A stretch of DNA of 64,000 nucleotides from Bryobacterales bacterium (GTDB lineage: Bacteria > Acidobacteriota > Terriglobia > Bryobacterales > Bryobacteraceae): contig PLOR01000021.1 of NCBI GenBank assembly GCA_003142185.1, forward strand, positions 124,001 to 188,000, read 5' to 3'. A program made the position numbers and the translations under genes. Below the pieces are notes generated by a model that worked only from the letters and a program-made list of their open reading frames with translations, had not been told where the DNA came from and did not search any database. Below are positions 60,896 to 62,159 of this stretch, in pieces. The number at the start of each line of letters is the position of its first letter. Within the stretch, counting starts at the first letter, position 1.

Positions 60896-61050
60896 GAAAT
60901 GGATGGTAGCCCTCCATGCGCAGGGAAAGCCCCAGCAGACTTCTGGGTGTCAATGCCTTATATTAACCGGTTTTGGGAGGGATGGGAATTGCGCGGCTGG
61001 CGTGCACGTTTCTTGGAGAAACCCGGCGCTGGCGGGAGACTACACCTTCG

Positions 61051-61138
61051 GTAGGACAGACGATCGGGTTTTGTCGTCTGTCATGCCTCGTTAACGCACG
61101 AACTTTGACAGACGACGAAGAACGATCGTCTGTCCTAC
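61051..61138. repeat. REP pair upstream of the transposase
   Basis: Two 33-bp REPs face each other: 61051-61083 and 61106-61138. Each is 'GTAGGACAGACGA' ... 'TCGTCTGTCA' and is itself a hairpin (GACAGACGA/TCGTCTGTC). They end 5 bp before the transposase start. Confidence 0.85.
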
Positions 61139-61142
61139 CACG

Positions 61143-61799
61143 ATGGCCTTCACGCGCAGACACCTGCCTCACTGGATTCCGGAGGACGCCGCTGTGTTCG
61201 TGACGTGGCGATTAGCTGGATCGTTTTCCGGTGATGAATGGGACAAAGTGGCGTCTTGCGTAGCCGGCGACCGTTCGCGCGAGCACGCCGCCTTGACAGA
61301 CGACACGAACCGATCGTCCGTCCTACCGCGCCTGTTGGAACAGGACGAGCGCCTCGACCGTGCGCATTGCGGTCCCGCCTGGTTGCAAGATTCGCGAGTC
61401 GCTTGTATGTTTGTGGAGGCTCTCCGGTATGGTGAGAGGGCTCGCCGATTTTACGAACTCCTCGCGTGGGTAGTCATGCCCAATCACGTCCACGTGATCT
61501 TCCAACCGCATACGGAATTGGCGGCCATCATGCGGTGGCTCAAAGGGAGAACCGGTCGAGTCGCCAACACCATTCTTGGCCGCACTGGGACTGCTTTCTG
61601 GCAGAACGAGTCATTCGACCATTGGATACGGTCCGCGGAGGAACTCGAGTATCTGATCGAGTACGTGGCGGACAACCCGGCAAAGGCTGGTCTGGTTGAG
61701 GCCAACGAGCAGTGGCGATGGTCAAGCGCGGGTTGGGTGACGGGGGCGGTGGGCCTGACAGACGACACAAACCGATCGTCTATCCTACCTCGCAGGTAG
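61143..61799 (+). CDS. REP-associated tyrosine transposase (RAYT, HUH Y1)
   Basis: A 218-aa TnpA_REP protein. 'LPHWIPEDAAVFVTWRLAGS' is the family N-terminus, the HUH histidines are in 'VVMPNHVHVIFQPH', and the catalytic tyrosine is probably in 'EELEYLIEYVADNPAKAGLV'. It starts at ATG 61143. REP sequence inside the gene encodes 'LTDDTNRSSVLPR' near residue 51 and again 'LTDDTNRSSILPRR' at the C-terminus, and the stop is in a fifth REP. RAYTs move or process REPs as single-stranded DNA. Confidence 0.92.
   Translation: MAFTRRHLPHWIPEDAAVFVTWRLAGSFSGDEWDKVASCVAGDRSREHAALTDDTNRSSVLPRLLEQDERLDRAHCGPAWLQDSRVACMFVEALRYGERARRFYELLAWVVMPNHVHVIFQPHTELAAIMRWLKGRTGRVANTILGRTGTAFWQNESFDHWIRSAEELEYLIEYVADNPAKAGLVEANEQWRWSSAGWVTGAVGLTDDTNRSSILPRR
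61294..61326 (-). repeat. REP copy inside the transposase gene
   Basis: A 33-bp REP in the same orientation as 61106-61138, translated in frame as 'LTDDTNRSSVLPR'. Confidence 0.85.
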
Positions 61800-61828
61800 G
61801 ACGGGCCATCGGTTTTCGTGGCCTGTCA
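61756..61828. repeat. REP pair at the transposase 3' end
   Basis: REPs at 61756-61788 and 61796-61828 face each other with 7 bp between. The right copy has changes in both hairpin arms (GACGGGCCA/TGGCCTGTC), keeping base pairing. The pair encodes the protein's C-terminus and stop. Confidence 0.85.
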
Positions 61829-61852
61829 TGCGGGCCACGTCCTACTTGTGCT

Positions 61853-61873
61853 GTATGCACATGATATGCATAC
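61853..61873. promoter_or_regulatory. Inverted repeat upstream of the BrnA-like gene
   Basis: GTATGCA-CATGATA-TGCATAC, perfect 7-bp arms, 16 bp before the ATG. Ribbon-helix-helix antitoxins bind such sites in their own promoters. Confidence 0.45.
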
Positions 61874-61889
61874 GCTAGAATTGTGGGCT

Positions 61890-62159
61890 ATGAAAGATCG
61901 CTACGATTTCAGCAAGGGCAAACGGGGCAGGGTTGTTCCACCGGAGCCCGAGCCGGAGGGCAAAACGCGGATCACGATCCGGCTCGACCAGGAAATTGTG
62001 GATCGCTTTTTCGAGATGGCGGAGCAATCCGGTGGTGCGACCGGCTATCAAACCCTAATCAACGCGGCGTTGCGGGAATACCTGGAGGGAAAAGCGCCGC
62101 GGCTCGAGGACACGCTGCGACGCATCATTCGCGAGGAACTCAAGTCGAGCGCGCCTTGA
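61890..62159 (+). CDS. BrnA-like antitoxin (orphan)
   Basis: An 89-aa protein. 'EGKTRITIRLDQEIVDRFFE' and 'GYQTLINAALREYLEGKAPR' are the BrnA/CopG ribbon-helix-helix. brnT toxins normally lie just upstream, but here that space holds REPs and no toxin is seen, so it appears orphaned. ATG 61890 starts 'MKDRYDFSKGKRGRVVPPEP', the family N-terminus. Confidence 0.78.
   Translation: MKDRYDFSKGKRGRVVPPEPEPEGKTRITIRLDQEIVDRFFEMAEQSGGATGYQTLINAALREYLEGKAPRLEDTLRRIIREELKSSAP

Follow-up and report, generated by a model that had tools for sequence, protein, structure and literature searches.

Near the 3' end of the window, as we call the whole stretch of 64,000 nucleotides of Bryobacterales DNA that was analysed, lies an open reading frame that, judged from its sequence, is a REP-associated tyrosine transposase (RAYT, also called TnpAREP; Table 1). 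The NCBIfam model REP_Tyr_transpos (NF047646) matches it at 82.3 bits, only just above the cut-off of 80, and Pfam Y1_Tnp matches it at 31.9 bits (cut-off 23); the IS200 model reaches 23.3 bits, below its cut-off of 55. The best solved relative, both by sequence and by the fold of the predicted model, is the TnpAREP structure 4er8. In an alignment of 57 RAYTs, N114 and H115 are invariant and H117 and Y174 nearly so, giving the gene the HuH motif and single catalytic tyrosine of this group. L8, P9, H10, F19 and T21 are also invariant in this alignment, and because these residues, which belong to real protein, precede the stretch encoded by the internal REP, the gene must be read through that REP. 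Directly after the last REP of the locus is an open reading frame for a BrnA-type antitoxin (61818-62159, with a likely start near 61890; Pfam BrnA_antitoxin, 8.3e-11).

Table 1. Features of the RAYT locus, in positions of the window
Feature	Position	Strand	Remarks
REP 1, Y subtype, upstream	61050..61083	+	GTAG foot 61051-61054
REP 2, Y subtype, inverted relative to REP 1, just 5' of the start codon	61106..61139	foot on -	
RAYT (TnpAREP) CDS, 218 aa	61143..61799	+	HuH motif NHVH at aa 114-117; Tyr in EYVADNP at aa 174
beta1-alphaA linker, aa 25-76	61215..61370	+	confidence of the model low at aa 31-60; varies most in length among five segments
Candidate decayed second REP, Z subtype, in the linker	61239..61278	foot on +	weakly to moderately supported
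REP 3, Y subtype, internal	61294..61327	foot on -	in frame as LTDDTNRSSVLPR, aa 51-63
REP 4, Y subtype, C-terminus	61756..61789	foot on -	encodes LTDDTNRSSILPR, aa 205-217
REP 5, Z subtype (GGCC form)	61795..61828	foot on +	GTAG foot gives the TAG stop, 61797-61799

An earlier note on this DNA had described five REPs at the locus, two upstream of the gene, one within it and two at its 3' end that supply the C-terminus and the stop codon. All five are found where it placed them, and the peptides that it gave for the internal and terminal copies are those encoded. Its description of both pairs as facing fits the 3' pair, whose feet face each other, but not the upstream pair, whose feet point outward. 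All five copies belong to one family that is spread through the genome in two main forms, which we named Y (GACAGACGA..TCGTCTGTC) and Z (GACAG[AG]CCA..TGG[CT]CTGTC) on the model of E. coli usage. The genome-wide search that had been proposed as a check found the Y core GACGACN6CGATCGTC at 75 exact places, 4 of them in the RAYT locus, and the stretch with the upstream REP pair has matches at 39 other loci (with 40 of 98 candidates scored). Since the same REP recurs throughout the genome in this way, the REPs of the locus are not a product of chance. With at most one mismatch, the Z pattern gives 45 forward and 45 reverse matches, compared with 0 and 0 for a reversed-pattern control. REP 5 is a copy of this common second subtype, and the paired changes that the note saw in it are no special compensatory event.

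Among 70 sampled loci, neighbouring REPs form 46 distinct pairs, all of them inverted with their feet outward and most often separated by a spacer of 25 bp. Such inverted doublets, occurring genome-wide, have the form of the REPIN, the proposed mobile unit. Mixed pairs of Y and Z make up 41 of the 46, and the other five are Y with Y, as is the upstream pair in the window. The GTAG foot is present on 54 of the 62 Y copies in this sample, and the RAYT gene itself has inverted GT[AG]G-headed REPs, abundant in the genome, on both sides. The 131 REP copies in the 70 fetched loci, counted without the RAYT locus, were also checked for positions within other genes: in none of the three domain-bearing ORFs, among 10 REP-spanning ORFs scanned, did a REP lie inside a Pfam domain, a result that we take as indicative only, because the codon score used to test ORFs is weak and misses even the RAYT gene (-0.013). 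A pattern scan of viral contigs matched one record. Two other RAYTs of the same genome (L004 and L005) are accompanied by different REP-like hairpins, into which, judged by eye, their C-termini run.

The internal copy, REP 3, is one base off a perfect palindrome; in the predicted model, the stretch that it encodes follows strand beta1 (aa 18-24) and precedes helix alphaA (aa 84-99). The confidence of this model is 57-67 over aa 31-60, compared with mostly 94-98 in the core. Across RAYTs, the standard deviation of length is 10.7 aa for the beta1-alphaA segment (computed with the REP-bearing ORFs included), versus 0.9, 5.2, 2.4 and 0.6 for the four other segments. The sequence of the window linker further suggests a second, worn REP of the Z form. 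We word this as a suggestion because the codon-shuffle p value varies with the reference REP copy (0.047, 0.28 or 0.0006) and because unrelated linkers may score as well (14, 46 or 0 of 148, again depending on the reference).

The nearest relatives of the window RAYT (L001) are L038, which has two tandem genes, L039, L040 and L070, at 67 to 75% identity in the 57-sequence alignment; these loci or their duplicates are labelled as Bryobacterales and Candidatus Solibacter MAGs. REP DNA of the window's family is present in the same linker in all five of these genes: the two L038 genes and L039 have a Y copy there, and L040 and L070 a Z copy together with one half of a Y. The internal copy is thus not peculiar to the window gene. 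A fresh in-frame jump into this gene alone can be rejected, since REP DNA is present at this place in five more ORFs of its 11-row clade (see below); the internal REP of the window looks old. Each of the tandem genes of L038 has both an internal and a C-terminal REP. In four other relatives, L041, L043, L045 and L048, the linker is short and, as judged by eye, holds no REP, though the same kind of REP adjoins these genes. The earlier note had proposed an alignment of homologs to see whether the internal segment is absent from relatives; it is absent from these four, and in this comparison the segment in the window appears to be an insertion. No intact REP copy was found in the linkers of L041 and L055. 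The L055 linker contains an apparent worn Z, with codon-shuffle p values of 0.0002 against two references and 0.0022 against a third; among 148 unrelated linkers, 0, 9 and 0 reach its score. The comparisons gave no pair of filled and unfilled linker alleles within one species, and in the one same-genus genome compared (G001) we found neither a RAYT match nor sdhC.

At the 3' end, the C-terminal copy and the TAG stop are flanking REPs into which the reading frame runs. A C-terminal REP is also present in both L038 genes, L039, L041 and L070, and as a Z copy in L055. We therefore reject an insertion as the origin of the C-terminal copy, which had been singled out as an oddity within the coding sequence: in the relatives L038, L039, L070 and L041 the same copy is an ordinary 3' flanking REP. 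According to Di Nocera et al. 2013 (PMC3733652), GTAG REPs often furnish neighbouring ORFs with their TAG stop, and there are repeats beside tyrosine transposase genes that overlap the gene at its 5' or 3' end.

To place the internal copy among RAYTs at large, a profile built from the RAYT alignment was applied to loci of the window's family and its phylum, together with a search of genome contigs, and gave hits in 267 ORFs. Thirty-six were excluded as not full length, and removal of 22 duplicates from the remaining 231 left 209 distinct ORFs. The excluded ORFs include L002, a second RAYT of the same genome (contig C92), and L151, whose linkers are cut by runs of N right before the REP. In L002, a 39-N assembly gap (1425-1463) ends in a REP half right before the linker, a point at which the assembly may have been interrupted by an internal REP; L151 has a similar gap. 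For each ORF in the full-length set, the gene interior was matched to its own flanks at a threshold of 30 bits, and permuted flanks provided the expectation. Internal matches of at least 30 bits were found in 13 of the 209 ORFs, compared with 0.7 expected; L070 is a known miss of this test despite its intact internal REP. The remaining 196 ORFs gave no such match. In-frame REPs inside tnpAREP genes, which the earlier note held to be unusual, had already been reported in 2018 (PMC6006769).

Nine of the 13 matches are palindromes in the beta1-alphaA linker (L001, L038 twice, L039, L040, L148, L156, L205 and L095, the last a Verrucomicrobia record), and these fall in five lineages and represent at least five different REP types. 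In one further match, L302, from another Acidobacteria lineage, a flank-matching repeat near position 1621 lies between the HuH and Tyr motifs. The matches in L223, L046 and L184 were rejected as REPs, being duplicated pieces of RAYT coding sequence. Duplicated RAYT gene pieces also occur in the flanks, beside intact RAYT genes, at L223, L184, L188, L046 and L099, and L298-L301 carry long stretches of extra sequence, in the linker and past the HuH motif, that give no 30-bit match to the flanks. Two pairs of relatively close genes differ in the filling of the linker: L095 (filled) and L111 (unfilled), Verrucomicrobia-type records with 84% identity over 153 columns, and likewise L148 and L149, with 82% identity, where L149 has some other bases at the site.

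In a tree of 158 rows from which the linker was left out, and with L070, L002 and L151 labelled as REP-bearing by hand, the REP-bearing label requires 6 changes, at least 4 of them forced by starred branches; the count is 6 whether L055 is scored or, as in one of the two label counts, left unscored. This is a quick tree, in which 71 of the 155 inner branches have support below 80. The position of the window gene in the 11-row clade (support 96) is an open fork, and the 5-row clade of close relatives, with support of 88, is not starred. A test of linker position gives p = 0.00024 for five of five lineages and p = 0.0012 for five of six when L302 is counted, values that are rough only, as the lineages are taken as independent and the linker is counted as 29 of the 154 positions in the model. 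The recurrence comes from five lineages only, three of which are represented by a single gene each (L205, L156 and L095). Taken together, the beta1-alphaA linker looks like a recurrently struck and tolerated site. Its length variability and the recurrence fit a tolerant site, and special targeting is not needed.

Based upon these comparisons, we consider it probable that the locus is a REPtron, that a REP or a pair of REPs was inserted in frame into its linker long ago and later decayed, and that other RAYT lineages acquired theirs independently. By REPtron we mean a RAYT gene flanked by inverted copies of the REP that is presumably processed by the predicted enzyme. A single REP, or a facing REP pair, would have been inserted in frame into the beta1-alphaA linker in an ancestor of the window gene and its closest relatives, and would have been kept and translated there because the linker tolerates changes in length. 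One ancestral insertion in this clade is the simplest reading of the sequences. Uneven decay and trimming would then have left L038 and L039 with a Y, L040 and L070 with a Z and one half of a Y, and the window gene with a Y plus perhaps the worn Z. In other RAYT lineages, the same linker would independently have taken up other REP types. The insertions may have been mediated by the RAYT or caused otherwise, with drift afterwards. From the cognate type of each insert we infer that RAYT activity placed the linker REPs. The earlier proposal that the enzyme's own elements can insert in frame thus stands as regards an insertion of the cognate REP relative to short-linker kin, and the enzyme as its agent is our deduction. 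We would likewise read the changes on each branch as gains rather than losses, and the internal copy as presumably neutral to the protein.

Alternatively, the internal REP could be kept for a function. For example, the RAYT could limit its own synthesis by binding the hairpin, either in the gene that encodes it or in the transcript, or the copy could help the element to move as a unit. Such a function might explain why the internal copy of L148 is identical over 28 nt to the two copies that flank it, and why that of one L038 gene is identical over 35 nt to its 3' copy. It might also account for the persistence of a Y copy with its foot in four clade members (L001, both L038 genes and L039), the foot being CTAC in the window and CCAC in the others, in each case as in the gene's own flanks. 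However, recent insertion or conversion explains the identity equally well, most RAYT ORFs (the 196 noted above) give no internal match at the 30-bit threshold, the kin with short linkers have no internal copy as judged by eye, and some internal copies have decayed, such as those of the window and L055. We therefore regard a retained function as unlikely. A more specific form of this idea, in which the linker is the preferred home of the RAYT's own element, refreshed to match the flanks, and its hairpin lets the enzyme sense and limit itself, seems to us doubtful.

The likeness between internal copies and their own flanks, and the density of near-identical repeats at RAYT loci, are also what would be expected if gene conversion or unequal exchange between the flanking REPs and an ancestral linker hairpin, rather than transposition, had created and refreshed the internal copy. 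Yet the internal copies of L156 and L205 match the flank on one side only, and the hairpin-less short linkers of related genes would give conversion no substrate, so that this process has a slim chance of being the explanation. A conserved protein motif with a secondary likeness to REP DNA might be suspected from the common frame of the Y half in all six clade genes bearing it (RSS, then V, A or I), but is very improbable and already contradicted, as the opposite-facing REP of L040 and L070 encodes a different peptide at the same linker place and the linker REPs of other RAYT lineages encode unrelated ones. Nor were the same residues found without REPs among the fetched relatives: the genes with TDDxNRSSV (L038 twice and L039) keep an intact REP.

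The old insertion into a tolerant linker, our preferred reading, has partial precedents. As far as the consulted sections of Quentin et al. 2018 (PMC6006769) go, tnpAREP genes of subclass 2.4, like some in subclass 2.8, contain cognate REPs in frame; those of subclass 2.4, called unique to it, generally lie between the HuH and Tyr motifs, and the subclass is abundant in Cyanobacteria and Bacteroidetes. The window RAYT resembles this subclass in having a cognate REP in the coding sequence, with the frame intact, in a peripheral variable region. It differs in the site, which precedes the HuH motif in the beta1-alphaA segment, and in the hosts, which here are Acidobacteria (Bryobacterales) and one Verrucomicrobia record; the repeat in L302 is at the place published for subclass 2.4. 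REP-encoded peptides, TAG stops from REP feet and repeats overlapping RAYT gene ends are shared with the cases of Di Nocera et al. 2013 (PMC3733652), where the available text does not mention a REP inside the RAYT catalytic domain. Similarly, Nunvar et al. 2010 (PMC2817692) described RAYTs between inverted GT[AG]G-headed REPs dispersed in the genome, but no internal copy in the portion consulted. The doublets of this genome correspond to the REPINs of Bertels and Rainey 2011 (PMC3116915), where inverted doublets are the proposed mobile unit and singlets are decayed doublets; the accessible part of that work describes them in extragenic space, whereas the window copy is intragenic. A full-text literature search with partial coverage returned no earlier report of a REP site between beta1 and alphaA. 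Since in-frame REPs in RAYT genes are already known, what is added here is the place in the linker, the clade of Acidobacteria and the recurrence of REPs at this place.

Whether REPs are moved by RAYTs in nature has been difficult to demonstrate. A permissive site within a gene, filled or short among relatives and read in frame, allows insertion events to be placed on a tree, and L148/L149 and L095/L111 are ready test pairs. Such a site also shows how repeats turn into protein sequence, and serves as a warning for annotation that RAYT linkers and C-termini may be made of REPs.
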